A stretch of 64,000 nucleotides of DNA from Kutzneria chonburiensis (lineage in GTDB: Bacteria; Actinomycetota; Actinomycetes; Mycobacteriales; Pseudonocardiaceae): assembly GCF_028622115.1 (NCBI RefSeq), contig NZ_CP097263.1:868001-932000 (forward strand). The letters run 5' to 3'. Of the stretch, positions 3,741 through 60,446 are shown piece by piece. The first letter of the stretch is position 1. Every line of letters begins with the position of its first letter. The position numbers were made by a program, and so were the translations under genes. The notes under the pieces are model-generated. The model saw nothing but the letters and a program-made list of their open reading frames with translations, ran no database searches and was not told where the DNA came from.

Positions 3741-3795
3741 TGCCACATGCGCTCCCCACTTGTCACCAGAGTGCAAGTAGGAAGCGCATGTGGCA
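3741..3795. repeat. 55-bp palindromic element, copy 1
   Basis: Arms of 22 bp (3741-3762 and 3774-3795, two mismatches) flank an 11-nt loop. The outer ends read TGCCACATGCG and its complement. It lies between two convergent genes (macrodomain and PucR-type regulator), 13 and 24 bp from their stops. It could act as a bidirectional terminator, but the conserved primary sequence points to a dispersed repeat family. Four more copies are listed below. Confidence 0.85.
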
Positions 3796-3819
3796 TCACG
3801 GCCGGCGGTCGCGACCGAC

Positions 3820-5379
3820 CTACTTGGTCAACCGGAGTTGGAGTTGGGCGACGAGGCGCTGGTCGGGGTCGGAGAGGTCGAGGCCGCTGACTTCGCAGGC
3901 GCGGCGGACGCGGTAGCGCAAGGTGTTGGGGTGGACGTGAAGGACGGCGGAAGCGGAGCGGACGTCGCCGAAAGCGTCGAGGTAGGCGAGTAGGGAACGG
4001 CCGAGGTCGCTGCCGGCCAGAGGGTCGAGGCGAGGATCGCGGATGCGGGGGTTGTCGGCGAGCAAGGTGAGGGTCTCGCTGAGCAACACCTGGGTCCGTA
4101 CGTCGGCGAGGGCGGCGACGTCGAGGGACGGCCGAGCGGCGATGGCGTCGAGCACGCGGTCGGCTTCCTGGCGGGAGACGGGAACGTCCTCGAGCCCGGC
4201 GACGACGGAGCCGATGCCGGCCTGGACGGAAACGCCGAGGTGCCGGCGGGTGGCGGCGACGGCGTCCCGGGTCATGGATGTGACGGTGGCGGCGTCGGTG
4301 ACCTCAGGCAGGAGCACGTAAACGCGGCCGGCGATGGGGGTGACGAGGGCGGAACGGCGGTAAGAAGCGGCGTGCACGGAGATGATGCTGATCATCTCGG
4401 CGCGGTGCAGCTCGACCTCGGAACGGGTGCGATCGGTGCTGCGCAAGAGGAAAGCGACGACGGCGGCCGGCTTCAGAGGATCGGCGCCGATCTGGCCGGC
4501 GACGGCGGTGCCGGTGATGCGACCGCCGAGGACACCGGCGAGGAGGTTCTCCCGCAAGCGAAGACCGGCGCTGGTGGTGTTGCGGTGCTGCACGAGGTAC
4601 AAGGCAGTGATCCGGGCAGCACCGAGCAGGGCACGGTCGGCGTGCTCGGCCAACGGGTGGCTGCCCTCCTGCACCCACACGGTCCCGAGCGGCTGCGACC
4701 CGGCATGGATGCCGACGGCGATCCGCCGCTTGATCCCCAACTCGGGCCGCGCGTCGATGTGCACGACGTCCTCGCCGGAACGAAGCCGCTGGTAGACGCC
4801 CCATTCCCGGAGCATCTTGAGGTACGGCTCCGGCCCCTGCCGGCCGAGAATGGACAGCCGCCGCAGCTCGTCGACCTCGTCGGAGGACCGCGAATAGGCC
4901 AGCACCCGGTTGGCGGTGTCCTCGATGCTGACGCTGCCGCCGGTCAGGGCGGCGATGGTCTGGGCCAACGAGAACAGGTCACCGAGCACCTCGCCGGCAT
5001 CGGCGTCGGCGGTGCCACGGGCGGCGCTGACCACGTTGCGCGACAACGATTCCAGCTGCTCCCACCGCACCTCGGTCCGTACGTCCAACAGCGCGACACC
5101 GGCATCGGCGGCGGTCTGCCGCAACGGCTCGGCATCCTTGACGGCGACGGCGGTCGCCCCACGCTTGCCGGCCGCCCGCACATGCGCGGCGGCGGACCGG
5201 CCGCGGGCGCCGATCACCAGCACCAGGTCGCCGGCCCGGGAGTCGGGGGCGTCGTCGGGATCGAGGATGACGACGTCGCGCACCTCGGCGTCCAGGCCGT
5301 CGGGCGCGGTCAGCACCTCGACGAACGGCTCGCCGAGCGCGAGCAGCAGCTGCTGGATGGTCGAGCCGGGGATGACCAC
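3820..5379 (-). CDS. pruC: PucR-family transcriptional regulator of proline catabolism (PruC-like)
   Basis: A 519-residue PucR-type activator. It has an N-terminal PucR sensory region, a central GGDEF-like cyclic-phosphate fold without GGDEF signature, and the C-terminal PucR helix-turn-helix (SLLAYLDAFGDVRSASAVLHVHPNTLRYRVRR, about residues 463-494). It is divergent from pruA, and in mycobacteria a PucR-type protein, PruC, activates pruAB; the same role is inferred here. The start is uncertain. GTG 5379 has its GGA directly adjacent, while a better GGAGG (5407-5411 on the complement) has no standard in-frame start at the right distance. A perfect inverted repeat lies in the leader. Confidence 0.85.
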   Translation of the reverse strand: MVIPGSTIQQLLLALGEPFVEVLTAPDGLDAEVRDVVILDPDDAPDSRAGDLVLVIGARGRSAAAHVRAAGKRGATAVAVKDAEPLRQTAADAGVALLDVRTEVRWEQLESLSRNVVSAARGTADADAGEVLGDLFSLAQTIAALTGGSVSIEDTANRVLAYSRSSDEVDELRRLSILGRQGPEPYLKMLREWGVYQRLRSGEDVVHIDARPELGIKRRIAVGIHAGSQPLGTVWVQEGSHPLAEHADRALLGAARITALYLVQHRNTTSAGLRLRENLLAGVLGGRITGTAVAGQIGADPLKPAAVVAFLLRSTDRTRSEVELHRAEMISIISVHAASYRRSALVTPIAGRVYVLLPEVTDAATVTSMTRDAVAATRRHLGVSVQAGIGSVVAGLEDVPVSRQEADRVLDAIAARPSLDVAALADVRTQVLLSETLTLLADNPRIRDPRLDPLAGSDLGRSLLAYLDAFGDVRSASAVLHVHPNTLRYRVRRACEVSGLDLSDPDQRLVAQLQLRLTK

Positions 5380-5383
5380 TCCT

Positions 5384-5399
5384 TTGTTCGGCAGAACAA
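5384..5399. promoter_or_regulatory. Inverted repeat TTGTTC-N4-GAACAA in the pruC-pruA divergent promoter region
   Basis: Perfect 6-bp half sites are separated by 4 nt, immediately upstream of the pruC start codon. It is the only perfect palindrome noticed in the 113-bp pruC-pruA gap, and so the best candidate operator for PruC or another regulator of proline use. Binding is not shown by the sequence itself. Confidence 0.5.
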
Positions 5400-5492
5400 T
5401 CCGGTACCTCCAAGCTTAGCCGTCCGGACAACACGGCGCCGAGCGTGGCTGCATAGCCTTCTGCCATCGACGACGTCGCCGAAGGAGTGCCA

Positions 5493-7118
5493 GTGGATGC
5501 CGTGACGCAGGTCCCGACCCCCGTGAACGAGCCGGTGCTGCAGTACGCGCCGGGCAGCCCGGAGCGGACCGAGCTCGAGGCGAAGCTGGTTGAACTGGCC
5601 AAGGAGCAGATCGAGCTGCCGCTGACCATCGGCGGCGAGCGCCGGATGGGCGGCGGCGAGCGGGTCGACGTCGTGCAGCCGCACAACCACCGCCACGTGC
5701 TGGGCACCTTCGCCGGCGCCACCCAGGCCGACACCCGCGACGCGATCGCCGCGGCCAAGGCCGCGGCCCCGGCCTGGCGCGCGATGCCGTTCGACGAGCG
5801 GGCGGCGGTCCTGCTGCGCGCGGCCGACCTGCTGTCCGGCCCGTGGCGCTCGACGCTGAACGCGGCGACCATGCTCGGCCAGTCCAAGACGGCGATCCAG
5901 GCCGAGATCGACGCGGCCTGCGAGCTGGCCGACTTCTGGCGCTACAACGTGGCCTTCGCCCGTGAGCTCCAGGCCAAGCAGCCGGAGAGCTCGAAGGGCG
6001 TGTGGAACCGCACCGACCACCGCCCGCTCGAGGGCTTCGTCTACGCGATCACGCCGTTCAACTTCACCGCCATCGCCGCCAACCTGCCGACCGCGCCGGC
6101 CCTGCTGGGCAACGTGGTGCTGTGGAAGCCGTCCCCGACCCAGACCTTCGCCGCGCACCTGACCATGCGGCTGCTGGAGCAGGCCGGCATGCCCCCGGGC
6201 GTGATCAACCTGCTGACCGGCGACGGCATCGCGGTGTCCGAGGTGGCGCTGGCCGACCCGGACCTGGCCGGCATCCACTTCACCGGTTCGACCAAGACCT
6301 TCCAGCACCTGTGGGCGGGCGTCGGCGCGAACATCGCCAACTACCGCAGCTACCCGCGGCTGGTCGGCGAGACCGGCGGCAAGGACTTCGTGGTCGCGCA
6401 CCCGTCGGCCGATCTGGACGTGCTGCGCACCGCGCTGGTCCGCGGCGCCTTCGAGTACCAGGGCCAGAAGTGCTCGGCCGCGTCCCGCGCCTACGTCCCG
6501 CGTTCGGTGTGGACCCGGCTGCGTGACGGCCTCGTCGCCGAGACCGAGGCGCTGAGCATGGGTGACGTCACCGACCTGGGCAACTTCATGGGTGCGGTGA
6601 TCGACCGCCGCTCGTACGACAAGCTGGCCGGCGTGCTCGACCGGGCCCGCGCCGACAGCAAGCTGGAGGTCATCGCCGGCGGCACCGCCGACGACTCCGA
6701 CGGCTACTTCGTGCGGCCGACCGTGCTCGTGGGCGATGACCCCTCGCACGACGTGTTCAAGACCGAGTTCTTCGGCCCGGTCCTGGCCGTGCACGTCTAC
6801 GAGGACAACGACTTCGACTCGGTTTTGTCCACTGTGGACGCTGCCTCGCCGTACGCGCTGACCGGCTCGATCATCGCCGACGACCGCGCCGCCGTGCTCA
6901 AGGCGTCCGAGGCGCTGCGCTTCACCGCCGGCAACTTCTACGTCAACGACAAGCCGACCGGCGCCGTCGTCGGCCAGCAGCCGTTCGGCGGCGGCCGGGC
7001 CTCCGGCACCAACGACAAGGCCGGCTCCGTGCACAACCTGCTGCGCTGGGTCAGCCCGCGGTCGATCAAGGAGACCTTCGTCGCCCCGACCACCGTCCGT
7101 CACCCCCACCAGGGCTGA
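5493..7118 (+). CDS. pruA: L-glutamate gamma-semialdehyde (1-pyrroline-5-carboxylate) dehydrogenase
   Basis: A 541-residue aldehyde dehydrogenase of the P5C dehydrogenase subfamily. It oxidises glutamate semialdehyde to glutamate with NAD+, the second step of proline catabolism. Motifs: FVYAITPFNFTAIAANLP and WKPSPTQ in the Rossmann region, GETGGKDF with the general-base Glu, and YQGQKCSAASR with the catalytic Cys. Family length is about 540. GTG 5493 is chosen because GAAGGAG ends 5 nt before it. It is divergent from the PucR-type regulator and is followed by pruB across a 55-bp palindromic repeat. Confidence 0.95.
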   Translation: MDAVTQVPTPVNEPVLQYAPGSPERTELEAKLVELAKEQIELPLTIGGERRMGGGERVDVVQPHNHRHVLGTFAGATQADTRDAIAAAKAAAPAWRAMPFDERAAVLLRAADLLSGPWRSTLNAATMLGQSKTAIQAEIDAACELADFWRYNVAFARELQAKQPESSKGVWNRTDHRPLEGFVYAITPFNFTAIAANLPTAPALLGNVVLWKPSPTQTFAAHLTMRLLEQAGMPPGVINLLTGDGIAVSEVALADPDLAGIHFTGSTKTFQHLWAGVGANIANYRSYPRLVGETGGKDFVVAHPSADLDVLRTALVRGAFEYQGQKCSAASRAYVPRSVWTRLRDGLVAETEALSMGDVTDLGNFMGAVIDRRSYDKLAGVLDRARADSKLEVIAGGTADDSDGYFVRPTVLVGDDPSHDVFKTEFFGPVLAVHVYEDNDFDSVLSTVDAASPYALTGSIIADDRAAVLKASEALRFTAGNFYVNDKPTGAVVGQQPFGGGRASGTNDKAGSVHNLLRWVSPRSIKETFVAPTTVRHPHQG

Positions 7119-7120
7119 AG

Positions 7121-7175
7121 TGGCACATGCGGCGCGCATTTGACGCTGGAAGGCAAATGCGCGCCGCATGTGACA
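7121..7175. repeat. 55-bp palindromic element, copy 2
   Basis: Arms 7121-7142 and 7154-7175 are complementary at 21 of 22 positions, with an 11-nt loop. The ends are TGGCACATGCG and TGTCACATGCG (inverted). It starts 2 bp after the pruA stop and lies inside the pruA-pruB operon, where such a stable hairpin could attenuate or process the transcript. Confidence 0.88.
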
Positions 7176-7206
7176 AAACGATGATTGCAGAGAGTGAGGA
7201 AACCCC

Positions 7207-8136
7207 ATGCTGCGCACCGCTTTGCTGGCCGCCGCCCGCTCGCCGCTGGCCCGTCAGACCGTCGAGCGCACCCCACTGGCCAAGCCGGTGGTGCGCAGGT
7301 TCGTGGCCGGCTCCTCGCTCGCCGAGGCCGTCGACGTGACCGCGTCGCTGATCGCCGACGGCCGCAAGGTCACGCTCGACCACCTCGGCGAGGACACCAC
7401 CGACGCCGCCCAGGCCGCGCTCACCGTGGACGCCTACGAGCGGCTGCTGGCCGAGCTGGGCGGCACCGGGCTGTCGAGCGGGGCCGAGGTGTCGGTGAAG
7501 CTCTCGGCCGTCGGCCAGTCGCTGCCCAAGGACGGCGAGAAGATCGCCCTGGACAACGCCCGGCTGATCTGCGAGGCGGCCGCGGCCGTCGGCACCACGG
7601 TGACGCTGGACATGGAGGACCACACCACCACGGACTCCACCCTGGGCATCCTCGCCGACCTGCGGGTCGACTTCCCGTCCACCGGCGCCGTGCTCCAGGC
7701 GTACCTGCGGCGCACCGAGCAGGACTGCCGTGACCTGTCCGGCGCCGGCTCCCGCGTCCGGCTGTGCAAGGGCGCCTACAAGGAGCCGGAAACCGTTGCC
7801 TACCAGGACAAGTCCGAGGTCGACCGGTCGTACGTGCGCTGCCTGAAGATCCTCATGGCCGGCGACGGCTACCCGATGGTCGCTTCGCACGACCCGCGCC
7901 TGGTGGCCATCGCCGCCGACCTGGCCGAGTCGCTGGGCCGGACCCCCGACACCTACGAGCACCAGATGCTCTACGGCGTCCGCCCCGACGCGCAGCGCGA
8001 GATCGCCGCCGCCGGTAAGACCCTAAGGGTCTACGTCCCTTACGGCGACCAGTGGTACGGCTACTTCATGCGCCGCCTGGCCGAGCGCCCGGCCAACGTC
8101 GCGTTCTTCCTGCGCTCCCTCGCCACCAAGAGCTAG
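7207..8136 (+). CDS. pruB: Proline dehydrogenase
   Basis: A 309-residue monofunctional proline dehydrogenase (FAD-dependent TIM barrel) of the actinobacterial short type. Motifs: VSVKLSAVGQSL, TLDMEDHTTTD, the flavin/substrate segment VRLCKGAYKEPETVAYQ (about residues 187-203), MVASHDPRLVAIA, YEHQMLYGVR, and the substrate-carboxylate segment YVPYGDQWYGYFMRRLAERPAN. It converts proline to P5C and passes electrons to the respiratory chain. It lies downstream of pruA, whose product uses its product. Predicted peripheral membrane or cytosolic location. The start is supported by GTGAGGAAA about 8 nt upstream. Confidence 0.95.
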   Translation: MLRTALLAAARSPLARQTVERTPLAKPVVRRFVAGSSLAEAVDVTASLIADGRKVTLDHLGEDTTDAAQAALTVDAYERLLAELGGTGLSSGAEVSVKLSAVGQSLPKDGEKIALDNARLICEAAAAVGTTVTLDMEDHTTTDSTLGILADLRVDFPSTGAVLQAYLRRTEQDCRDLSGAGSRVRLCKGAYKEPETVAYQDKSEVDRSYVRCLKILMAGDGYPMVASHDPRLVAIAADLAESLGRTPDTYEHQMLYGVRPDAQREIAAAGKTLRVYVPYGDQWYGYFMRRLAERPANVAFFLRSLATKS

Positions 8137-8145
8137 CTCCCGTAT

Positions 8146-8200
8146 TGCCACATGCGCTTCCCACTTGGCGCCAGACGCCAAGTGGGAAGCGCATGTGGCC
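8146..8200. repeat. 55-bp palindromic element, copy 3
   Basis: Arms 8146-8167 and 8179-8200 are complementary at 21 of 22 positions around an 11-nt loop. The loop itself contains a GCG/CGC pair that can extend the stem. It sits between the convergent stops of pruB (9 bp away) and an SDR gene (8 bp away). Its arm sequence is closely related to copy 1. Confidence 0.88.
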
Positions 8201-8208
8201 TGAGCTGA

Positions 8209-9033
8209 TTAGTCGAAGTTGGTGCTGCGGCTGACCTTTTCCCAGGTCGCTAGCTCGGTGCGGAATCGGTCCGAGTGGGCGAGCAGCACGTCCACGGCGT
8301 CGCCGCCGAGCGGCAGCCGCAGCGGTGTCTGCTCGGCGTCGAGTGCGGCGATGATCGCGGCGGCGGCCTTGGCCGGGTCGCCGGCCTGCTGGCCGTCGGA
8401 GGCGGCGGCCGCCGCGGCGGTGGCGCCGACCGTGGCCTCGTACGCCGGCATCGGCGTCGACCGGACGAAGCCGTTCTGCAAGCCCGTCCGGAAGGAGCCG
8501 GGCTCGACGATCAAGACCTTGATGCCGAGCGGGCCCACCTCGGCGGCCAGTGCCTCGGACAGTCCTTCCAGCGCGCACTTCGCGGCCGAGTAGGCGGAGT
8601 AACCGGCGAACGACAGCTGTCCGCCGATACTGCTGATCTGCACGATGGCCCCGGAGCCCTGGCCCCGCAGGTGCGGCAGCACGGCGCGGGTCACGGCGGC
8701 CGCGCCGAAGAACATCACCTCCATCATGCCGCGCAGCTCGGCGTCGGTGTTCTCCTCGACCGCGCCGACCAGTGCGTACCCGGCGTTGTTGACCAGCACG
8801 TCGAGCCGGCCCTGCCACTGCACGGCTTCCGCCACCGCCGCCGGGATGCGGTCGCCGTCGGTGACGTCCAACTCCAGTGGCAGTACCCGACCCGGGTACG
8901 CCGCCGCGAGGTCGGCCAGCGCCGACGGCCGCCGCGCGCTGGCCACCACGTCGTCACCCGCGGCCAGCGCCGCCTCCGCGATGGACCGCCCGAAGCCGGA
9001 CGAGGCACCCGTGATCAACCAAATCCTGCTCAT
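8209..9033 (-). CDS. Short-chain dehydrogenase/reductase
   Basis: A 274-residue classical SDR. It has the NAD(P)-binding TGASSGFGRSIAE motif, the structural NNAG, the catalytic Ser in QISSIGGQ and the YSAAKCALEGLSEALAAEVG active-site Tyr/Lys. A Pro-Gly segment (VEPGSFRTGL) follows. It resembles ketoreductase-like SDRs often named for oxidoreductases of unknown substrate. ATG 9033 is preferred (GGAAGG about 10 nt upstream); a GTG at 9042 is possible. Convergent with pruB across a palindromic element. The substrate is unknown. Confidence 0.85.
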   Translation of the reverse strand: MSRIWLITGASSGFGRSIAEAALAAGDDVVASARRPSALADLAAAYPGRVLPLELDVTDGDRIPAAVAEAVQWQGRLDVLVNNAGYALVGAVEENTDAELRGMMEVMFFGAAAVTRAVLPHLRGQGSGAIVQISSIGGQLSFAGYSAYSAAKCALEGLSEALAAEVGPLGIKVLIVEPGSFRTGLQNGFVRSTPMPAYEATVGATAAAAAASDGQQAGDPAKAAAAIIAALDAEQTPLRLPLGGDAVDVLLAHSDRFRTELATWEKVSRSTNFD

Positions 9034-10991: not shown

Positions 10992-10997
10992 CTCACG

Positions 10998-14912: not shown

Positions 14913-17756
14913 TTGACGATCATCGAGGAGACCGCCCTCCCCGATCTGGGGCACCTCCGCATCGGCCTGCTCGGCCCCGTCCGCGCGTGGCTGGACGACG
15001 CCGAGGTCGCGGTCGGGCCGCCGCGCCAGCAGGCCCTGCTCGCGGTGCTGGCCACCAACCCCAACCAGGTGATCTCCCGTTCCGAGCTGATCGACGCCAT
15101 CTGGGGCACCGAGCCGCCGGCCAGCGCGGTCGGCAGCGTGCACACCTACGTCGCCGGCCTGCGGCGGGCCCTCGAGCCGGCCCGCAAGACGTTCCAGGTG
15201 CTGGTCAGCGCCGGTTCCGGCTACAGCCTGCGGGTCGGCCCCGAAGGTGTGGACGCCGAGCGCTTCACCCGCTACCGGCAGGACGCGCGGCAGTTGCTGG
15301 GCCGCGGCAACCCTGAGGCCGCGTTGGCCGGCTTCGACCGGGCCTTGGCGCTGTGGGCCGGCACGCCGCTGGGTGGCATCGGCGGGCCGTTCGCCGACAT
15401 CGAGCGGCAGCGGCTGGCCGAGCTGCGGCTGGACGTCATCGAGGAGCGGGCCGACCTGCTGCTGGCCCTGCGCCGACCGGCCGAGGTCGTCGGCCAGCTC
15501 AAGGAGGTCCTGGAGGATCACCCGCTGCGCGAGTCGACCCGGGCGCTGCTGATCACCGCGCTGCACCAGCAGGGCCGGGCCGGCGAGGCCAAATCGGTCT
15601 ACCAGGCCGGCGCCCGGCTGCTCGACGACCGGCTGGGCGTGCAGCCCGGGCCGGCGCTGCGCCGCGTGTACGAGACGCTGATCGACAGCGAGCAGCCGGC
15701 CGAGGAGATCCTGCCGCGGGTCGTGCCGTCCCAGCTGCCGCACGACACCCGGCGGTTCACCGGGCGCGGCGAGGAGCTGCGGCGACTGGACGGTCTGCTG
15801 CCCGCGGCCGGGGCCGTCGGCGGCGGCAGCACCGTCGTCATCACGACGATCGAGGGCACCGCCGGAATCGGCAAGACCTCACTGGCCGTGCACTGGTCGC
15901 ATTTGGTCCGCGACATGTTTCCGGACGGTCAGGTTTATCTGAACCTGCGCGGATTCGATGTCGCCGACAAACCGGTCCAGCCGCACGACGCCCTTTACAC
16001 ATTGCTGTCGGCATTTCGGGTGCCGTCGGAGAAGATTCCGCAGGACACCGGTGGGCGCAGCGCCATGCTGCGCAGCGTCGTCGCCGGCCGGCGGATGCTG
16101 ATGGTGTTGGACAACGCCATGTCCACCGACCAGGTCACGCCGCTGCTGCCGGCCAACCAGAGCTGCGTGGTCCTGGTGACCAGCCGCAACCGCTTGGACG
16201 GGCTGGTCGCGACCGGCGACGGCCGGCAGCTGACGCTGGGCCTGTTCGACAAGGCCGATTCGTCGGCGCTGCTGGCCAGCTACCTCAGTCCGGAGCGGGT
16301 GTCCGAGGAGCGCGATGCGTTCGCCGAGCTGCTCGGCCTGTGCGCCGGGCTGCCGCTGGCGCTGAGCATCGTCGGCGCGCGGGCCTGGTGCAGCCCGAAC
16401 CTGCCGCTCGCCCAGTTCGTCGACGAACTGAGAGACGCTCACTTCCGGTTGGATGCTTTGGACACCGGCGATGACGCCGCATCCAGCGTGCGGGCCGTGT
16501 TCTCGTGGTCGTACGACGCGTTGAGCCCCGCGGCCGCGCGCATGTTCCGCCTGCTCGGCCTGCACGCCGGGCCCGACGTCAGCCGGCACGCCGCCGGCGC
16601 GCTGGCCGACGTGACCGAGGACGAGGCCCGAGCCCAGCTCGACGAGCTCGTGCGGGCGCACCTGTTGGAGCTGCGCGCCGACGGCCGTTTCCAGTTCCAC
16701 GACCTGCTGCGCGTGTACGCGTTGGAGCGGGCCACCAGCGACGAGTCCGACGCCGAGCGCGACGCCGCCGCGCGACGCGGCGTCCGGTGGTACATGCACG
16801 CCGCCAACCAGGCCGACCGGGTCATGCTGACCTTCAAGCCCGTGCACAACATCATCGATCCGCCGCCGCACTGGAGCTTTCCCACGCAGGCCGATCCCGA
16901 CGGGGCCAAGGCGTGGTTCATGGCCGAGGAGACCAACCTCGTCGAGGCCATCCGGCGGGCCGCCGAGCTCGGCGAGCATGCCGTGGCGTGGCGGTTGCCG
17001 CAGACCATGTCCAGCTTCTGGTACGTCTACAACAAGCGTTGGGAGCTGTGGAACGAGATGCTCCGCATCTCGTTGGAGCACGCCGTTCTCGACGCCGACA
17101 CCAACGGCATCGCGTCCGCGCACTCGTCGCTCGGCATCGTCGCCAACGACCTCAAGCGTTACGACGAGGCCGTCCAGCACTACCTGCGGGCCATCGAGCT
17201 TTTCCCCCAGCTCGACGAGAAGTGGTTGGTGGGCATCACCTACAACTCCCTCGGCCACACCTACGTCGCCCTCGGCCGGTTCCCCGAGGCCATGGCCGCC
17301 CTGCGCACCGCCGCCGAGGCGTACGAGGCCACCGGCAACATCTGGGGCCGGGCGTGGGCACTACAGGGCACCGCTTCGGCCTACAACGCCATGGGCGATC
17401 ACGCGAAAGCCTTGGAGTACGGCCGTTTGACCCTCGCCGCCTGGCACGACGTCGACTACAAGCACGGCATCGGCTCGGGTCTCAACCTCCTCGGCGAGAT
17501 CCACCTCGCCGCCGGCGACTACACCTCCGCGATCGACTACTACGACCAGGCCGTGCAGGCCCGACAGGCCATCAACGACCGCTTCGGCATCGCCAACGCC
17601 TTGCGCGGCAAGGCTTTGTCCGAATGGCGTGCCGGTCTCGTCGACGACGCCCGCGAGTCCTACCGCCGCGCCCTGCCCATCCTGACGGCCTTGGAGTCCC
17701 CGGAGCTCTCCGAGGTCGAGGCCGAACTCGCCCAACTCGACGCCGACCACCCCTGA
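14913..17756 (+). CDS. AfsR/SARP-type regulator (wHTH-BTAD-NB-ARC-TPR)
   Basis: A large multidomain regulator of 947 residues. Order: OmpR-type winged HTH (about residues 15-100, LGPVRAW to GSVHTYVAGLRRAL), BTAD (about 105-250), NB-ARC/STAND ATPase with P-loop GTAGIGKTSLAVHW and Walker-B MLMVLDNA, then a TPR-rich C-terminus (SSLGIVANDLKRYDEAVQHY, NSLGHTYVALGRFPEAM). AfsR-type proteins switch secondary metabolism or development genes in response to ATP and partner binding. TTG 14913 is preferred because GGAG lies 8 nt upstream and the conserved fold starts about 14 residues later; GTG 14766 would give 996 residues. No biosynthetic cluster is adjacent. Confidence 0.88.
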   Translation: MTIIEETALPDLGHLRIGLLGPVRAWLDDAEVAVGPPRQQALLAVLATNPNQVISRSELIDAIWGTEPPASAVGSVHTYVAGLRRALEPARKTFQVLVSAGSGYSLRVGPEGVDAERFTRYRQDARQLLGRGNPEAALAGFDRALALWAGTPLGGIGGPFADIERQRLAELRLDVIEERADLLLALRRPAEVVGQLKEVLEDHPLRESTRALLITALHQQGRAGEAKSVYQAGARLLDDRLGVQPGPALRRVYETLIDSEQPAEEILPRVVPSQLPHDTRRFTGRGEELRRLDGLLPAAGAVGGGSTVVITTIEGTAGIGKTSLAVHWSHLVRDMFPDGQVYLNLRGFDVADKPVQPHDALYTLLSAFRVPSEKIPQDTGGRSAMLRSVVAGRRMLMVLDNAMSTDQVTPLLPANQSCVVLVTSRNRLDGLVATGDGRQLTLGLFDKADSSALLASYLSPERVSEERDAFAELLGLCAGLPLALSIVGARAWCSPNLPLAQFVDELRDAHFRLDALDTGDDAASSVRAVFSWSYDALSPAAARMFRLLGLHAGPDVSRHAAGALADVTEDEARAQLDELVRAHLLELRADGRFQFHDLLRVYALERATSDESDAERDAAARRGVRWYMHAANQADRVMLTFKPVHNIIDPPPHWSFPTQADPDGAKAWFMAEETNLVEAIRRAAELGEHAVAWRLPQTMSSFWYVYNKRWELWNEMLRISLEHAVLDADTNGIASAHSSLGIVANDLKRYDEAVQHYLRAIELFPQLDEKWLVGITYNSLGHTYVALGRFPEAMAALRTAAEAYEATGNIWGRAWALQGTASAYNAMGDHAKALEYGRLTLAAWHDVDYKHGIGSGLNLLGEIHLAAGDYTSAIDYYDQAVQARQAINDRFGIANALRGKALSEWRAGLVDDARESYRRALPILTALESPELSEVEAELAQLDADHP

Positions 17757-17872
17757 CCCCGCGAGTCCCGCCCAGCGTCACACCGAATGTCGGAACCGTG
17801 CAGAACTGAGCTTCGGAGCTCAGTTCTGCACGAAACCGCATTTCAGTATGACGCTGGGCGGGACTCGCGGGG
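17757..17872. repeat. GAGTCCCGC palindromic element E1 (intact)
   Basis: A 116-bp element bounded by perfect 24-bp inverted ends (17757-17780 and 17849-17872) carrying GCGAGTCCCGC. An inner perfect 15-bp hairpin (17798-17812 and 17817-17831, loop TCGG) fills the centre. It starts on the base after the stop of the AfsR-like gene and ends 1 bp before the stop of metH. It therefore fills the convergent gap almost exactly and probably terminates both transcripts. It is the reference copy for E2-E4. Confidence 0.85.
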
Positions 17873-17873
17873 T

Positions 17874-23493: not shown

Positions 23494-24378
23494 GTGGGCC
23501 GCTGGGACAACCTCAGGCACATCTTGTCGCTGGATCCCGAGCGTGACCACCAGGAGATCTACCGCTTGTCCTCGGGTTTCGAGTTTCCGTGGGACTACCA
23601 GCGGTCGATGGAGTTCGCCTTGTTCCGCACGTACTGCGTGCCGTCGATCTCCACGCTGCTCGCCGCTACCCGCGAGTTCGAGCTGCGGCCGCAACGTCGT
23701 TATGACGACACCGCGCTGCTCATCGCCGAGATGATGGAGCACGGCTACGACTCGCCTCGCGGCAAGGCCGCCCTGCGGTCGATCAACCGCGCGCACAACC
23801 GGTTCCGCATCAGCAACGACGACATGCTGTATGTGTTGTCCACCTTCGTTTTCGAGCCCGTCCGCTGGCTCGACCGCTTCGGTTGGCGGCGTTTGTCCTC
23901 CCACGAGCGCCTCGCCGCCTTCCACTTCTACCGCGCCGTCGGCGCCCGCATGGGCATCCGCTCCATCCCCTCCGGCTATGCCGAGTTCGAACAGTTCAAT
24001 GTGGACTTCGAACGTCGTCACTTCACGTACACCGCAACGAATGCCGCCATCGGCCGGTACACCCTCGAGCTCTTCTGCTCCTGGTATCCGCCCGCTTCAC
24101 GGCCGTTGATCCGCCCCGCCCTCCGGTCCTTGATGGACCGCCCCCTCCTGGACGCTTTCGGCTTCCCTCCCGCGCCCCCTTGGCTCACCGCCCTGTCCGA
24201 GGCCGGCGTCCGTTTCCGCTCCGCCGTCGTCCGGGAGTTGCCGCCCCGCCGGCATTCCAAGCTGGCCAACGACCCCAAGAACCGGACCTATCCGGGATAT
24301 CCCACCGGCTACGACCCGTCCGAGATGGGTGCGGGGGAGCCGCCGGCGGACATCGACCCGTCGCTGCTACGGCGGTAG
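23494..24378 (+). CDS. MpaB/rubber-oxygenase-like (DUF2236) heme oxygenase
   Basis: A 294-residue helical protein of the DUF2236 family, which includes the latex-clearing protein Lcp and fungal MpaB. Family-like motifs are WDYQRSMEFALFRTYCVPSIS near the N-terminus and YDDTALLIAEMMEHGYDSPRGKAALRSINRAHNRFRISNDDMLYVLSTFVFEPVRWLDRFGWR (about residues 70-131), containing a His and an Arg expected in the heme pocket. No signal peptide is seen, so it acts in the cytosol, unlike Lcp. GTG 23494 begins 4 bp after the LLM stop. Its TAG stop doubles as the beginning of the next -10 box. Confidence 0.8.
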   Translation: MGRWDNLRHILSLDPERDHQEIYRLSSGFEFPWDYQRSMEFALFRTYCVPSISTLLAATREFELRPQRRYDDTALLIAEMMEHGYDSPRGKAALRSINRAHNRFRISNDDMLYVLSTFVFEPVRWLDRFGWRRLSSHERLAAFHFYRAVGARMGIRSIPSGYAEFEQFNVDFERRHFTYTATNAAIGRYTLELFCSWYPPASRPLIRPALRSLMDRPLLDAFGFPPAPPWLTALSEAGVRFRSAVVRELPPRRHSKLANDPKNRTYPGYPTGYDPSEMGAGEPPADIDPSLLRR

Positions 24379-24381
24379 GGT
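24376..24381 (+). promoter_or_regulatory. -10 box (TAGGGT) before the first leader ORF
   Basis: TAGGGT, whose first three bases are the stop codon of the MpaB-like gene, is followed by 7 nt and the ATG of a 10-codon ORF. The same box and spacing recur at 24795-24800. A leaderless transcript starting at that ATG is predicted. Confidence 0.55.
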
Positions 24382-24388
24382 TGGCGGC

Positions 24389-24421
24389 ATGACGATCAAC
24401 CGAAAGGGCCATGCCGCGTAG
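24389..24421 (+). CDS. Leader peptide MTINRKGHAA, copy 1
   Basis: A 10-codon ORF whose 33 bases are repeated identically at 24808-24840. It starts where a leaderless transcript would start. Its stop overlaps the first codons of the downstream ORF (ATG 24411) in another frame by 11 nt. Ribosomes terminating here could restart on the overlapping gene. That is translational coupling by inference. Identity at the DNA level could also simply reflect a recent tandem duplication. Confidence 0.5.
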   Translation: MTINRKGHAA

Positions 24422-24797
24422 GCGCCCGAGTGAGCTGCGGTTCCGCCGCAGCGACGTCAAGAAGAAGCCGCCCGGCCTGCCGCGTGGTTCCGCTCGCCTG
24501 CTGACGGCCGTCGCGGCGTTGGAGCGCAACGGCTTCGATTCAGTCGGCGGCGCGCTGCGCAACTGGCGACTCAACGTGCAGGGACGGTGGGAACTCACTG
24601 GCTGCGACCACTGCGACTGGCTCGTGATCACGGCCCGGGAGACCCTCGACTCCGCCATGCGGGCGCTGCCGCCACCGTTGGCGCGTGAACTGGGGGCGAT
24701 GGTCGCCCCGCTGGATGAGCTCTACGAAGCGCGAACCGTGCCCGATCCAGCCGCCCCTTCGAACGCCCCGGCTTGGTCCCGGCGCACGAGGTCGTAG
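24411..24797 (+). CDS. Small basic protein of unknown function, paralogue A
   Basis: A 128-residue Arg-rich protein: MPRRRPSELRFRRSDV, a GLPRGSARLLTAVAALE segment, a central region with CDHCDW (possible metal or redox Cys pair) and an amphipathic helix LDSAMRALPPPLARELGAMVAPLDELYEA. It is clearly related along its length to the next gene. The internal ATG 24411 is just after AAAGGG with only 2 nt spacing, so initiation by coupling from the 10-codon leader ORF is likely. No known domain is recognised; it sits between MpaB-like and clpP genes without an obvious functional link. Confidence 0.65.
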   Translation: MPRRRPSELRFRRSDVKKKPPGLPRGSARLLTAVAALERNGFDSVGGALRNWRLNVQGRWELTGCDHCDWLVITARETLDSAMRALPPPLARELGAMVAPLDELYEARTVPDPAAPSNAPAWSRRTRS

Positions 24798-24800
24798 GGT
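24795..24800 (+). promoter_or_regulatory. -10 box (TAGGGT) before the second leader ORF
   Basis: TAGGGT overlaps the TAG stop of paralogue A and is followed by 7 nt and the ATG at 24808, an exact repeat of the arrangement at 24376-24389. Confidence 0.55.
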
Positions 24801-24807
24801 CGTGCCT

Positions 24808-24840
24808 ATGACGATCAACCGAAAGGGCCATGCCGCGTAG
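24808..24840 (+). CDS. Leader peptide MTINRKGHAA, copy 2
   Basis: Identical over 33 bases to 24389-24421, again leaderless in appearance, with its TAG overlapping the start of the following ORF (ATG 24830). The upstream bases differ between the copies apart from the -10 box, so the identity is confined to the leader ORF and junction. Confidence 0.5.
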   Translation: MTINRKGHAA

Positions 24841-25213
24841 GCGGCCCCGTGAGCTGCGGGACGGTCGAGTCCGCCGCAGCGAGACCCGTCACGTGCGCGG
24901 ACTGCCGCGGGCTTCGGCTCGGCTGGTCGGTGCGGTCAGCCGCTGGGAGAAGTTCCCGGGTGAAGTGGCTTTGGCGTTGAAGTTCTGGGGCGACGCCGTT
25001 CGGCGGCCGCATCACGTGCGCTACCGGACCGGCGGATGGGACTTCCCGTACGAGCTCCGCGACCGGCTGGAGGATGCGCTGCGGGCGCTGCCCCGGCAGG
25101 CGGCCCGTGAACTGCGCGAACTGATACGACCGCTGGACGAGATCTACCTGGCCAACACGGCGAACGATCCCTTCGCGGCCAGGGACGAACCGTGGTGGCA
25201 CCGGAGGTTGTGA
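24830..25213 (+). CDS. Small basic protein of unknown function, paralogue B
   Basis: A 127-residue protein related to paralogue A: shared MPRRRPxELR start, GLPRxSARLxxAV segment and a helix LEDALRALPRQAARELRELIRPLDEIYLANT. It differs in the centre, where it lacks the CxxC of paralogue A and has WGDAVRRPHHVRYRTGGWDFPYEL. The gene is followed by a short GC-rich hairpin with a downstream A-rich stretch (25275-25300) that may end the transcript. Function unknown. Confidence 0.65.
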   Translation: MPRRRPRELRDGRVRRSETRHVRGLPRASARLVGAVSRWEKFPGEVALALKFWGDAVRRPHHVRYRTGGWDFPYELRDRLEDALRALPRQAARELRELIRPLDEIYLANTANDPFAARDEPWWHRRL

Positions 25214-25305: not shown

Positions 25306-25342
25306 GAGCCCCATGTCTGCGCTTTCCGCAGACATGGGGCTC
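25306..25342. terminator. Bidirectional terminator between paralogue B and clpP
   Basis: A perfect 16-bp inverted repeat (25306-25321 and 25327-25342) with a 5-nt loop, 15 bp beyond the clpP stop. On the minus strand it is followed by a T-rich run (TTGTCGTGTTTTGTGG), fitting an intrinsic terminator for clpP. Confidence 0.75.
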
Positions 25343-49317: not shown

Positions 49318-50532
49318 GTGGTACCCGACGGTTACGACTTCACCGATCCCGATGTCTACGCAGACGGCGTGCCGTACGGGCACTTCGCCGAGCTGCGTCG
49401 CACCGCGCCCGTCTGGTGGAACGCGCAGAGCGGACACTGCGGCGGTTTCAGCGACGGCGGCTTCTGGGCCGTGACGCGGCACGCCGACGTGCGCGAGATC
49501 TCCCGCCGCAGCGACGTCTTCTCCTCGTGGGCCAAGGGCGCGATCGTCCGCTTCGGCCAGGAGATGCCGCCGGAGCGGATGGAGATGCTGCGGCTGATCA
49601 TGCTCAACCAGGACCCGCCGCAGCACACCAAGGTCCGCGGCATCGTCTCCCGCGGCTTCACCCCCAAGTCGATCAACTCCTTACGCGACGCGCTGCGCGA
49701 CCGGGCCGAGCGCATCGTCGACGCCGCGGTGGCCGGTGGCAGCGGTGACTTCGTCACCGATGTCGCGTGCGAGCTGCCGCTGCAGGCGATTGCCGAGCTG
49801 CTCGGCGTGCCGCAGGAGGACCGGCTCAAGATCTTCGACTGGTCGAACCAGATGATCGCGTACGACGACCCGGAGTACGAGATCGAGCCGGACGTGGCCA
49901 GCGCGCAACTGCTCGGCTACGCCTGGAACATGGCCGAGCAGCGTCGCGCCTGCCCGATGGACGACATCGTCACCAAGCTCGTGCAGGCCGACGTGGACGG
50001 CGAGGCGCTGGGCTCCGACCAGTTCGGCTTCTTCGTGCTGCTGCTGGCCGTGGCCGGCAACGAGACCACGCGCAACGCCATCACCCATGGCATGGCGGCC
50101 TTCCTCGACCACCCCGAGCAGTGGGAGCGGTTCAAGGCCGAGCGCACCGCAACCGCCGCCGACGAGATCGTCCGCTGGGCCACGCCGGTCGTCGCCTTCC
50201 AGCGCACGGCCAAGGAGGACGTGGAGATCGGCGGCGTGTCGATCAAGCAGGGGCAGCGGGTCGGCATGTACTACAGCTCGGCCAACTTCGACCCCGAGGT
50301 GTTCGACAACCCGCACGCCTTCGACATCGGCCGCGACCCCAACCCGCACCTCGGCTTCGGCGGCAGCGGCACGCACTACTGCCTCGGGGCCAACCTGGCC
50401 CGGCTGGAGATCGAGCTGATCTTCAACGCCATCGCCGACCGGATGCCCGACATCCACAAGCTGGCCGAGCCCGAGCGGCTGCGTTCCGGCTGGCTCAACG
50501 GCATCAAGCACTTCCAGGTCGCCTACGCCTAA
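49318..50532 (+). CDS. cyp125: Steroid C26/C27-hydroxylating cytochrome P450 (CYP125-like)
   Basis: A 404-residue soluble P450. I-helix LLLAVAGNETTRNAITHG with the acid-alcohol pair, the ExxR in ADEIVRWATPV, and the heme Cys in HLGFGGSGTHYCLGANLARLE. GYDFTDPDVYADGVPYGHFAELRRTAPVWWNAQ, GGFWAVTRHADVREISRRSDVFSS and LRSGWLNGIKHFQVAY are near-identical in pattern to remembered CYP125A1. It oxidises the terminal side-chain carbon of cholesterol/cholestenone. GTG 49318 is chosen: GGAGG ends 4 nt upstream. A KstR-type site lies in the promoter. A nested repeat element follows directly on the stop codon. Confidence 0.92.
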   Translation: MVPDGYDFTDPDVYADGVPYGHFAELRRTAPVWWNAQSGHCGGFSDGGFWAVTRHADVREISRRSDVFSSWAKGAIVRFGQEMPPERMEMLRLIMLNQDPPQHTKVRGIVSRGFTPKSINSLRDALRDRAERIVDAAVAGGSGDFVTDVACELPLQAIAELLGVPQEDRLKIFDWSNQMIAYDDPEYEIEPDVASAQLLGYAWNMAEQRRACPMDDIVTKLVQADVDGEALGSDQFGFFVLLLAVAGNETTRNAITHGMAAFLDHPEQWERFKAERTATAADEIVRWATPVVAFQRTAKEDVEIGGVSIKQGQRVGMYYSSANFDPEVFDNPHAFDIGRDPNPHLGFGGSGTHYCLGANLARLEIELIFNAIADRMPDIHKLAEPERLRSGWLNGIKHFQVAYA

Positions 50533-50694
50533 CCCCCGCGAGTCCCGCTCACAGACACCCCGAAATGCGGTTTCCAGCACATTCGAATGTCACATGCGCG
50601 GCGCACTTGCCTCCCTGAGGCACGTGCGGTCCGCATGTGACAGGAGAGGGCTACCGGAAGCCGTATTTCGGTGTGACGCTGGGCGGGACTCGCC
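50533..50694. repeat. GAGTCCCGC element E2 with a 55-bp element nested in its centre
   Basis: Left half (50533-50587) and right half (50643-50694) are inverted copies with GCGAGTCCCGC ends and share about 30 of 39 outer positions with each other. They also resemble E1. The E1-type central hairpin is replaced by a 55-bp CACATGCG element. It begins on the base after the cyp125 stop. Confidence 0.78.
50588..50642. repeat. 55-bp palindromic element, copy 4 (nested in E2)
   Basis: Arms 50588-50609 and 50621-50642 (18 of 22 paired) around the 11-nt loop CCTCCCTGAGG. Ends TGTCACATGCG. The loop is identical to copy 5, although the arms differ. Confidence 0.85.
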
Positions 50695-50750
50695 GCTTTG
50701 TTCTACTTGGCCGTGAACACGAGTGGGGGCCGCGACCAAGTAGAGATGTG

Positions 50751-51308
50751 ATGACAGCAATCGACGAGGCGGCGCCACCTGGCCACCTCGCGGATTTCGA
50801 GCAGCTGTTCGAGGCGCACGCCGATGACCTGCACCGCTACCTGGGCAGACTCGTCGGCGGCGTGGCCGACGACCTGGTCGCCGACACGTTCGTGGCGGCC
50901 TTGAAGGGCCGCGACGGCTTCGATCCGGCGCGGGCATCGGCCCGGGCCTGGCTGTTCGGGATCGCCAACAACCTCGCCCGCAACCACCTGCGCCGCCGTA
51001 AACGTGAGACGGCCGCGACCGCCCGGCTGGCCGACGCCGCCCGGGCCGAGAGCCACGAGAATCGCGTGGTCGAGCAGGTCGACGCGCAGCTACGGGCCCG
51101 CCGGCTGCGCGCGGCCATCGCCGAGTTGGACGACGCCGACCGCGATGTGCTGCTGCTGACCAGCTGGGCCGGCCTCGACTCGAACGAGATCGCGGAGGTG
51201 CTCGGCATCCCGGCCGGCACCGTGCGGTCCCGCCTGCACCGCGTGCGCCGCCACCTGCGGGTCGCCGCGCCGAGAATGGATCTTGGGAGCACCGATGATG
51301 TGGACTGA
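50751..51308 (+). CDS. RNA polymerase ECF-type sigma factor
   Basis: A 185-residue sigma-70-family factor. Region 2 spans about residues 16-85 (FEQLFEAHADDLHRYLGRLVGGVADDLVADTFVAALKGRDGFDPARASARAWLFGIANNLARNHLRRRKRE). Region 4 spans about 110-170 (AIAELDDADRDVLLLTSWAGLDSNEIAEVLGIPAGTVRSRLHRVRRHLR). The 3' end overlaps a gene of the CU044_5270 family, its usual partner. ATG 50751 is chosen over an upstream frame that runs into the E2 repeat. The regulon is unknown. Confidence 0.9.
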   Translation: MTAIDEAAPPGHLADFEQLFEAHADDLHRYLGRLVGGVADDLVADTFVAALKGRDGFDPARASARAWLFGIANNLARNHLRRRKRETAATARLADAARAESHENRVVEQVDAQLRARRLRAAIAELDDADRDVLLLTSWAGLDSNEIAEVLGIPAGTVRSRLHRVRRHLRVAAPRMDLGSTDDVD

Positions 51309-52356: not shown

Positions 52357-52362
52357 GGAGGC

Positions 52363-56714: not shown

Positions 56715-56723
56715 GAGGGCCTC

Positions 56724-57686: not shown

Positions 57687-57691
57687 CGAAG

Positions 57692-57705
57692 TGAAACACG
57701 TTCTC
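57692..57705. promoter_or_regulatory. KstR-type site 3 (DUF35/LLM divergent promoter)
   Basis: TGAAACACGTTCTC matches TNNAACNNGTTNNA except for the last base. It lies in the 41-bp gap between the divergent DUF35 operon and the LLM-fadD pair, and could repress both. Confidence 0.7.
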
Positions 57706-57727
57706 GTTTTTGCGGCAAGATGAAGGC

Positions 57728-58786: not shown

Positions 58787-58791
58787 GGCGT

Positions 58792-60336
58792 ATGACGGCG
58801 CCTGGACTTTGGCACATCGCGGCTGCGGAACCCGGGTTGACGGCGGTGGTCGACCCTGACGGCGGCGAGGTGAGCTACGGCTCGCTCGCCGCTGCGGCGG
58901 ATCGGTACGGGCGGGGGTTGCAGGCCATGGGCCTGCGCCCTGGCGACAGTGTCGTGGTGTTGCTGCCCAACGGGTCCGACCTGATGGCGATGTACTTTGC
59001 CGCCATGCAGACCGGGCTGTACATCGTGCCCGTGAACTGGCATCTGGTCGGTCCGGAGATCGCGTATCTGATCTCCGACTCCGGCGCCAAGGCTTTCGTC
59101 GCCTCTTCCCGCTTCGCCGAGGCCGCCGCCGTCGCCGGCGAGTCGCTGCCTGCTTCCGCACGGTTCTCGGTGGGGGAGATCCCCGGCTTCCAGCCGTTGT
59201 CCTCCCTTGGCGCGTCGGAACCCGTTGGCCGGCCCGACATCCGCACCGCCGGCGCACCCATGCTCTACACCTCCGGCACCACCGGCCGGCCCAAGGGCGT
59301 CCGCCGGGCTTTGACCGGGGCCGATCCCGACGACGTGCCCGCCGCCGGCATCTGGTTCTTCGGCATCTTCGACCTCAAGCCGTTCGACGGGCACGTGCAC
59401 CTGTGCGGTTCGCCGCTCTATCACACCGCCGTGCTGAACTTCGTCGCCCTGTCCATCCAGTTCGGACACACGGCCGTGTTGATGGACCGTTGGGACGCCG
59501 AGGAGATGCTTCGGCTGATCGCCAAGTACCGCGTCACCCACAGTCACATGGTCCCCACCCAGTTCCGCCGCCTGTTGGCCCTGCCCGAGGACGTTCGTTC
59601 TTCTTACGACGTCTCTTCGTGGCGGGCCGCCATCCACGGCGCCGCCCCGTGCCCGCTCGAGGTCAAGCGCCGCATGATCGAGTGGTGGGGGCCGGTCGTC
59701 ACCGAGTACTACGCCGCCACCGAGGGCGGCGGCACCGTAATCAATTCCGTCGACTGGCTCCGCAAGCCCGGCTCGGTCGGCCTCCCTTGGCCCGGCTCGG
59801 TGGTCAAGGTCCTCGCCGACGACGGCTCCGAGCTCCCCGCCGGCGAGATCGGCACCGTGTACATGCGCATGGGCGCTTCCACCTTCGAGTACTACAAGGA
59901 CAAGGCCAAGACCCAGGCCGGCCGCGTCCGCGACCTCTTCACCCTCGGCGACATCGGCTACCTCGACGAGGACGGTTACCTGTTCCTCTGCGACCGCAAG
60001 GCCGACATGATCATCTCCGGCGGCGTCAACATCTACCCGGCGGAGATCGAGGGCGAGCTGGCGTGCCACCCCGCCGTCGCCGACGTCGCGGTCTTCGGCA
60101 TTCCCCACCCCGATTGGGGCGAGGAGATCAAGGCCGTCGTCCAGCCCGTCGACGGTGTCTCCGGTTCCCCCGAGCTCACCGCCGAGCTGCTCTCGTACCT
60201 CGCCACCCGCCTCGCCAAGTTCAAGCTGCCCCGCACCGTCGACTACGCCGCCGAGCTCCCTCGCGACCCCAACGGCAAGCTCTACAAGCGCCGCCTGCGG
60301 GACCCGTACTGGGAGGGGCAGGAGCGCGCCATCTGA
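58792..60336 (+). CDS. Acyl-CoA synthetase (FadD family), sterol locus
   Basis: A 514-residue AMP-forming ligase. The phosphate loop is LYTSGTTGRPKGVRR (about residues 157-171). Others: YYAATEGGG (A5-type), DIGYLDEDGYLFLCDRKADMIISGGVNIYPAEIE (ribose-binding Asp and hinge) and the catalytic Lys in ELPRDPNGKLYKRRL. It belongs to the bile-acid/steroid-CoA ligase type of FadD enzymes; the exact counterpart (FadD17, FadD3 or another) could not be decided. It acts downstream of P450 oxidation to activate a side-chain or ring acid. It has its own KstR-type site. Ends one base before repeat E3. Confidence 0.88.
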   Translation: MTAPGLWHIAAAEPGLTAVVDPDGGEVSYGSLAAAADRYGRGLQAMGLRPGDSVVVLLPNGSDLMAMYFAAMQTGLYIVPVNWHLVGPEIAYLISDSGAKAFVASSRFAEAAAVAGESLPASARFSVGEIPGFQPLSSLGASEPVGRPDIRTAGAPMLYTSGTTGRPKGVRRALTGADPDDVPAAGIWFFGIFDLKPFDGHVHLCGSPLYHTAVLNFVALSIQFGHTAVLMDRWDAEEMLRLIAKYRVTHSHMVPTQFRRLLALPEDVRSSYDVSSWRAAIHGAAPCPLEVKRRMIEWWGPVVTEYYAATEGGGTVINSVDWLRKPGSVGLPWPGSVVKVLADDGSELPAGEIGTVYMRMGASTFEYYKDKAKTQAGRVRDLFTLGDIGYLDEDGYLFLCDRKADMIISGGVNIYPAEIEGELACHPAVADVAVFGIPHPDWGEEIKAVVQPVDGVSGSPELTAELLSYLATRLAKFKLPRTVDYAAELPRDPNGKLYKRRLRDPYWEGQERAI

Positions 60337-60337
60337 A

Positions 60338-60391
60338 CCCCCGCGAGTCCCGCTCTCAGACACACCGAAACACGCTCTCACGCACATTCGA
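60338..60391 (+). repeat. GAGTCCCGC element E3, left half only
   Basis: Begins 1 bp after the fadD stop with CCCCCGCGAGTCCCGC and matches the complement of the right half of E4 (61023-61114). It is interrupted by a 55-bp element, and its own right half is missing; beyond the insert lies an echA19 fragment instead. Confidence 0.75.
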
Positions 60392-60446
60392 TGTCACATG
60401 CGCGTCATACTTGCCTCCCTGAGGCACCTCCGGACCGCATGTGCCA
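60392..60446. repeat. 55-bp palindromic element, copy 5 (nested in E3)
   Basis: Arms 60392-60413 and 60425-60446 pair well in their outer 11 bases (TGTCACATGCG with CGCATGTGCCA) but poorly inside. The 11-nt loop CCTCCCTGAGG is identical to copy 4. The most degenerate copy, though the 22-11-22 spacing is kept. Confidence 0.78.

Follow-up and report, generated by a model that had tools for sequence, protein, structure and literature searches.

A nearly genus-confined family of REP-like 55-bp palindromes of fixed length at gene 3′ ends in Kutzneria chonburiensis

Repetitive extragenic palindromes (REPs) of the GTAG and CGTC superfamilies are short intergenic palindromes that form families of fewer than 100 to thousands of units (PMC3733652). 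As that study describes them, they lie mostly between convergent or unidirectional genes, with the convergent ones, in the two species detailed, mostly less than 20 bp from both 3′ ends and the unidirectional ones near the upstream gene; some families are restricted to one species or genus, dimers occur, CGTC families have no dedicated transposase, and a REP is defined by a GTAG or CGTC tag that stays unpaired at one of its ends, together with a stem of 5–13 bp (PMC3733652). In Streptomyces avermitilis, Term-seq places transcript ends after GC-rich palindromes with no overall poly-U tail (PMC8780764), and inverted repeats concentrate near transcript ends across life (PMC13155455). Here we describe a 55-bp palindromic element that occurs five times in a 64,000-nucleotide stretch of the Kutzneria chonburiensis genome, hereafter the window (bases 868001–932000 of NZ_CP097263.1, a single contig of 10,411,187 bp; the window has 69.9% G+C). 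Searches of openly licensed literature turned up no description of these elements, and the main text of the Kutzneria albida genome paper contains no word starting with "palindrom" (PMC4210621).

The Kutzneria elements share with the REPs of that description the gene-end niche, the limitation of the family to a genus, the presence of dimers and, as in the CGTC families, the lack of a dedicated transposase. In contrast, they have no GTAG or CGTC foot tag, possess 25-bp arms and a fixed length of 55 bp, come without a REP-associated (RAYT) transposase and are actinobacterial, whereas the main text of PMC3733652 mentions neither Actinobacteria nor Streptomyces. With the U-less transcript ends of S. 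avermitilis they have in common a GC-rich palindrome at the gene end, mostly without poly-U, although that study's account of transcript ends does not present the palindromes as a repeat family (PMC8780764), whereas the Kutzneria elements conserve and copy both sequence and length. The survey across life considered perfect inverted repeats of any sequence and its main text names neither Kutzneria nor Actinobacteria (PMC13155455). We read them, with a probability of roughly 0.58, as non-autonomous REP-like palindromes with a fixed 55-bp frame and a niche at gene 3′ ends, putative two-way hairpins that have spread by copying.

The size and the constant length of the family are evident from the genome sequence. 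A search with the pattern CACATGCG-N33-CGCATGTG, in which the outer octets are fixed and hence never variable among copies, gave 125 exact matches in the K. chonburiensis genome (G000), and a reversed-pattern control gave none. With a gap of 20–48 allowed between the octets the identical 125 matches were returned, every one with 33 nt. The five copies in the window, at 3741, 7121, 8146, 50588 and 60392, are each 55 bp on direct reading, as the initial annotation of the window had proposed, and its suspicion of a repeat family with constant spacing is likewise borne out; three outcomes had been named beforehand as speaking against such a family (a scarcity of further copies, a location unrelated to gene ends and a variable spacing), and none of them occurred. 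Rfam 15 gave no match in the window at the gathering score.

The family is essentially confined to the genus Kutzneria. Among 120 genomes, including that of K. chonburiensis with its 125 copies, the exact outer-octet pattern is found 45 times in Kutzneria sp. 744 (G002), 42 times in K. buriramensis (G001), 14 times in G003 and six times in Kutzneria sp. CA-103260 (G006), with no match in G004 and G005; two genomes from other genera have one match each, with unpaired interiors. Looser ends, GNCACAT-N39-ATGTGNC, searched in 297 genomes, gave 130 matches in K. chonburiensis, 64 in Kutzneria sp. 744, 41 in CA-103260, 33 in K. buriramensis, 10 in G003, one in G005 and none in G004, while 13 further genomes have a single match each and the reversed control likewise gives scattered singles. 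A scan of 84,980 species, each represented by one genome, returned 106 stretches, 82 from Kutzneria and 24 from other organisms.

The placement of the elements follows gene 3′ ends. A codon-model script supplied the gene calls, and the counts cover the 100 of the 125 copies that were fetched with flanks, the remaining 25 all lying beyond 8.12 Mb. The neighbourhood is convergent for 46 copies, tandem for 44 and divergent for eight, with two inside called genes, where intergenic length would predict 14, 52 and 32, respectively, for the 98 intergenic copies (chi-square 92). A stop codon is found at most 60 nt away from 83 of the 100 copies and at most 20 nt away from 61. In the window the nearest upstream stops end at 3727, 7118, 8136, 50532 and 60336, that is 13, 2, 9, 55 and 55 nt before copies 1 to 5, which agrees with the earlier remark that every copy is near a stop codon. 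In tandem gaps, 41 of the 44 copies are closer to the upstream stop than to the downstream start (sign test p 8e-10), with a median stop distance of 21 nt versus 75 under uniform placement; when the 60–100 bp before the start are excluded, the median is about 22–24 nt versus 50–64 expected (40 and 28 usable copies).

The element follows a plan of four octamers spaced as 8-9-8-5-8-9-8, which amounts to a 25-bp arm, a 5-nt loop and a second 25-bp arm. The 22-11-22 architecture initially proposed is right in its fixed 55 bp and better read as 25-5-25: in copy 3, 24 of the 25 arm positions are paired round a 5-nt loop. The 100 listed copies end in NNNCACATG and CATGTGNNN, mostly YGNCACATG...CATGTGNCR, and these ends pair with each other; the outer ends described for the window copies need correction in copy 3, which ends in GGCC and not in GGCA. 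The inner octamers mostly resemble the outer ones, roughly NGNCAMRT. A scan of octamer spacings in a sample of the K. chonburiensis genome gave 95 matches at the 9/5 spacing and none at 34 other spacings, which is descriptive and no independent proof, since the elements themselves set the spacing. Doublets of elements 72–89 bp apart are found at four places and another pair is 253 bp apart.

Two subfamilies can be distinguished among the 100 listed copies. Subfamily A (53 copies) is symmetric with arms CACATGCGCTYC..., and subfamily B (47 copies) is asymmetric with mostly one CGTC-type and one GTCCGG-type arm; the copy at 7121 has a rarer spacer and is counted under B in this two-way split. 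The median arm pairing in A is 22 of 25 positions, whereas in B the arm positions 12–14, 17, 19 and 20 are mostly unpaired and the octamer frame is retained despite the lost pairing. In the five window copies 20, 21, 21, 18 and 14 of 22 positions pair, in order, so that the equally good arms assumed at first do not hold for copies 4 and 5, which belong to the asymmetric subfamily with its mostly unpaired arm middles. Folded as RNA, the five copies give z-scores of −5.0 to −10.6. The compensating arm changes that had been noticed are real, but narrow: in A, covariation beyond the column make-up peaks at arm position 14 (z 6.7 in the 53 K. chonburiensis copies and 8.3 in 87 copies from relatives) and at position 16 (z 6.7 and 6.3, respectively), followed by position 17 (z 2.2 and 4.2), while positions 3, 20 and 27 reach z 0.8–2.9, position 25 shows a deficit and the inner octamers have a weak pairing excess. 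Covariation in palindromes can also come from template-switch correction of DNA, and it is for this reason no proof of an RNA function.

The subfamilies differ in their range and placement. Copies with exact outer octets in the loci of relatives (n = 89) comprise 86 A, two B and one mixed element, or 87 A by a looser rule, although B-like copies in which a single octet has changed are known from Kutzneria sp. 744 as well. Both Kutzneria sp. 744 and CA-103260 possess a third set, D, whose ends read GCCACATGTGG. A copies lie a median of 10 nt from the stop (n = 48) and B copies 18 nt (n = 44), and the convergent share is 31 of 47 for A versus 15 of 43 for B (Fisher p 0.006). A strand preference of the asymmetric B was looked for and rejected, with 12 of 28 tandem copies oriented as the gene, 13 opposite and three undecided; such random orientation is as expected for a part working in both directions.

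DNA uptake sequences of Neisseria and Haemophilus consist of a conserved motif that forms inverted pairs after genes, as terminators, and is also found singly and within genes. The Kutzneria elements resemble them in the inverted motif pairs after genes, but single half-elements are nearly absent: A-type half-units are paired in 151 cases and unpaired in one in the K. chonburiensis sample, 29 and two in 39 loci of Kutzneria sp. 744 chosen by map position, and 82 and one in the K. buriramensis loci. The idea of CACATGCG as an uptake-type single motif was rejected on these counts and because 10 of its 11 occurrences in the window fall inside the five elements; 100 shuffles gave a mean of 4.4 occurrences and a maximum of nine.

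The five copies and the neighbouring parts of a second palindrome, module C, are located in the window as follows, none of them being assigned to a strand.

3741–3795: copy 1, subfamily A, symmetric; between the convergent genes for a macro domain protein (3215–3727, + strand) and a PucR-type regulator (3820–5379, − strand).
7121–7175: copy 2, rarer GCGCGC spacer, counted under B; 2 nt past a stop, between the tandem genes for aldehyde dehydrogenase (5493–7118, + strand) and proline dehydrogenase (7207–8136, + strand).
8146–8200: copy 3, subfamily A, near-perfect 25-5-25 hairpin; between the convergent genes for proline dehydrogenase (+ strand) and a short-chain dehydrogenase (8209–9033, − strand).
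17756–17873: module C as a free 118-bp palindrome, spanning stop to stop of two convergent genes; same niche, different family.
50531–50586: module C left arm (CCCCCGCGAGTCCCGC ... CACATTCGA); its start coincides with the upstream gene's stop codon.
50588–50642: copy 4, subfamily B, asymmetric; between two arms of a module-C palindrome, with a cytochrome P450 gene (49318–50532, + strand) upstream and an ECF sigma factor gene (50748–51308, + strand) downstream.
50657–50700: module C right arm (...TTTCGGTGTGACGCTGGGCGGGACTCGC), partner of 50531–50586.
60336–60391: module C left arm adjoining copy 5.
60392–60446: copy 5, subfamily B; between the convergent genes for an AMP-binding enzyme (58846–60336, + strand) and an enoyl-CoA hydratase/isomerase (61116–61916, − strand).
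61073–61116: right arm of module C, separated from copy 5 by about 630 bp; its end coincides with the stop codon of the 61116–61916 gene.

Next to copy 5 there is a duplicate of about 66 bp from the 3′ region of the enoyl-CoA hydratase gene (60447–60513 and 61149–61215, 89% identical). Elsewhere in the window, two 66-bp stretches at 24375–24440 and 24794–24859 are 86% identical and lie 419 bp apart; in each, a TAGGGT box immediately precedes a short open frame (ATGACGATCAACCGAAAGGGCCATGCCGCGTAG), an arrangement resembling duplicated leader regions in a pair of related small genes. The 16-bp perfect inverted repeat at 25306–25342 (GAGCCCCATGTCTGCG), about 15 nt past the stop-side end of the 25358–25960 gene (− strand), is another gene-end hairpin.

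The 55-bp elements share their niche with other palindromes. Strong inverted repeats are found in 46 of 90 convergent gaps of 30–400 bp that have no 55-bp element in the K. chonburiensis genome, in 63 of 391 such tandem gaps and in 10 of 210 divergent ones, with none in shuffled gaps; in 400 kb of G005, a sister species, the corresponding figures are 14 of 16, 12 of 76 and 3 of 43, again with none after shuffling. Several of the repeats in the gaps are repeat families, module C among them. The GCTTGGAAGG...CCTTCCAAGC family has 29 copies genome-wide with cores of 51–53 bp, and a family with GAGTGGCTC spacers is seen solely in the gap survey and the octamer spacing scan. The module C motif GCGGGACTCGC occurs 33 times in a 1.56-Mb sample of the genome, with many occurrences paired or beside B and a few plainly unrelated.

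In G005 the niche is taken by a family of different sequence, CATGAA-N-TTCATG, with 180 matches at gaps of 31–47 and one match in the reversed control. At 48 of 50 listed places the core measures 49 bp, equal to the core of the K. chonburiensis family, whereas the two exceptions, of 58 and 53 bp, resemble chance matches. The 8-9-8-5-8-9-8 frame can accommodate eleven of these elements from the 400 kb of G005, whose outer octamers include TGNCATGA; seven are convergent, three tandem and one lies inside a called gene. A second form of the motif is found 228 times in G005, 23 times in G012, five times in G036 and once in G033, with no match in the other 66 of 70 genomes, K. chonburiensis included, and a spacing control with the gap two bases longer gave no match in 297 genomes, G005 included. 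A family of different sequence with an equal core length and a similar location in a sister species suggests a gene-end part that is spread by copying. The 23 palindromes of G012, which belongs to another genus of the same family as Kutzneria, have the G005 core spacing and a different interior.

The families also differ at orthologous gene ends. Altogether 44 copies of K. chonburiensis could be aligned to intervals of Kutzneria sp. 744 (42 distinct intervals). Of these, 23 lie in stretches chosen by map position alone, omitting sites already matched to element-bearing loci, which biases the filled share downward, and 21 in loci fetched for holding an element somewhere, which biases it upward; alignments too gapped to interpret (e.g. 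sites 1, 16, 17, 19, 52, 56, 57 and 95) were counted as holding none, and site 20 has a run of N in the 744 stretch. Kutzneria sp. 744 has an A element at 16 of the 44 places, 13 of them opposite an A copy and three opposite B, and a D element with GCCACATGTGG ends at five (sites 27 and 35 opposite A; sites 25, 28 and 78 opposite B). At site 23 module C alone is found in 744 and B alone in K. chonburiensis, while sites 50 and 87 carry module C but no B in 744, as opposed to a B element between two C arms in K. chonburiensis; site 96, the window copy at 7121, holds a relic of other length in 744. A different palindrome family is thus present at nine of the 44 places (A versus B at three, D versus A or B at five, module C versus B at one), and the 23 places chosen by map position hold one A, four D and three C elements and none of these at 15. 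Two sites, 2 and 28, have flanks that agree on both sides up to a few bases from the element although the interior is of another family, which points to replacement in place.

The initial annotation had described a REP/MITE-type family, after REPs and miniature inverted-repeat transposable elements (MITEs), and had suggested a check for a REP-associated transposase. Its dispersed repeat, conserved sequence and tie to gene ends stand, while a RAYT transposase and a convincing target-site duplication are not seen. The RAYT/Y1 profile PF01797 has no match in the K. chonburiensis genome (the search control was positive in 5 of 14) and none in eight of the nine genomes searched, K. chonburiensis included; the ninth, G003, has one partial match covering 33 of 121 profile positions in a 58-residue frame. 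No unpaired GTAG or CGTC end tag is present in the 100 listed copies, and instead of a 5–13 bp stem a median of 22 (A) or 17 (B) of 25 arm positions pair. The niche, convergent and unidirectional gaps near gene 3′ ends, is that of REPs, and the elements are consequently REP-like and not REPs. As in intrinsic terminators, a stable hairpin follows the gene, judging from the placement of the 100 copies and the folding of the five in the window.

Copying, together with a gene-end niche common to several palindrome families, best accounts for the conservation of primary sequence. In such a model, transcription of the element from either side would yield a long hairpin at the 3′ end of the RNA, so that the end would be marked whichever the direction, and this hairpin may either stop transcription without a U-tract or block decay from the 3′ end. 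Termination and RNA protection by the elements are thereby predicted from sequence; the GC-rich palindromic ends without poly-U in S. avermitilis make U-less hairpins plausible 3′ ends in actinomycetes (PMC8780764). Selection would tend to keep some palindrome in the gene-end slot while its sequence may change, and new sequence versions may spread by copying into existing slots or palindromes, either by template switching or conversion via the shared outer octamers or by some enzyme other than a Y1/RAYT transposase.

Several observations weigh against this explanation. The median pairing of B, merely 17 of 25 positions, is weaker than expected of a selected hairpin, and the length deviates by 1–2 bp in two of 14 copies in G003 and one of six in CA-103260. 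Eight of the 100 copies lie between divergent genes. No U-tract is found: at least four T within 8 nt after the element occur in four of 63 gene-side cases of A and seven of 50 of B, and the T share after the 3′ arm is 17% in A and 25% in B, which is not enriched, with T commoner (28%) before the 5′ arm of A. In S. avermitilis a U-rich motif is present at about 25% of transcript ends, the stronger ones, and that study notes that GC-rich genomes may give rise to stems at random positions (PMC8780764). At 19 of the 44 aligned places none of these families is present in Kutzneria sp. 744, so the slot need not be filled; five sites (21, 26, 36, 38 and 59) look, by eye, simply empty and without duplication, and at site 29 the flanks differ right beside the element. 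Finally, a copying enzyme was not identified.

A possible, though distinctly less probable, alternative is that the elements are neutral or selfish mobile palindromes, for which gene ends are the least harmful sites or existing palindromes attract insertions. Species-specific bursts would account for B making up 47 of 100 copies in K. chonburiensis and two of 89 in the relatives, although this contrast is somewhat overstated given the B-like copies with a changed octet in Kutzneria sp. 744. The empty-looking 744 sites fit as well, as do B elements sitting between module C arms where 744 has C alone (sites 50 and 87), the C-type arm (GAGTCCCGC) found within 130 bp of 13 of 47 B copies (four on both sides, nine on one) versus one of 53 A copies, and the smaller convergent bias of B, the presumably younger subfamily. 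However, the tandem copies are placed more tightly than mere tolerance predicts, and different families occupy the identical niche.

It is also conceivable, if rather doubtful, that an undescribed actinobacterial system is at work, in which an enzyme or protein pair would measure the 55-bp frame, made up of two 25-bp octamer pairs with 5 bp between them, and would write the prevailing version into existing gene-end slots. If such a length rule holds, families would replace each other in place, with frame and position kept, in more than one genus of the Pseudonocardiaceae.

Somewhat less likely still, the element could be the site of a sequence-specific protein, protein binding having been considered in the initial annotation too. 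Two dimers would then occupy the four octamers (about NGNCAMRT), which alternate in orientation at intervals of 9 and 5 bp, and the protein could serve in chromosome organisation, in insulation of convergent transcription or as the copying enzyme itself. The likeness of inner and outer octamers, the near absence of lone A-type half-elements, the frame that B keeps though its pairing is lost and the random orientation of B are all consistent with this. No candidate protein turned up, however, and no search for one was made; the G005 family keeps the frame with different octamers, and a protein site leaves the gene-end placement unexplained. MITEs moved by a classical DDE transposase would have terminal inverted repeats and dispersed copies as observed here, but are very improbable. 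The 100 copies show no convincing target-site duplication, the largest excess of flanking direct repeats being a 2-mer in 15 copies versus 6.5 after shuffling (shuffle maximum 14), the best of 252 settings; no search was made for long elements bounded by TGNCACATG. Moreover, the element consists entirely of inverted repeat without an internal body, and the empty-looking 744 sites show no duplication by eye. A separate origin of an ordinary intrinsic terminator at every gene would match the gene-end hairpins and the folding z-scores of the window copies, but the conserved sequence and fixed length of 125 copies contradict such an origin and the U-tract is lacking, as is strong pairing in B, so that this explanation deserves next to no credence.

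As REP-like palindromes spread by copying, the elements would give the actinomycetes a system set apart from the REPs of PMC3733652 by one exact length in this genome, a core length common to a different-sequence family in a sister species, different families at one gene end in two species and the lack of a Y1 transposase. The fixed frame common to families of different sequence and their exchange at identical gene ends would be surprising to a specialist. Two questions become testable in this system, namely how transcripts end without U-tracts in GC-rich bacteria and how palindromic repeats spread without a transposase, as described for CGTC REPs, and the elements themselves would be candidates for compact gene-end parts that work in both directions.

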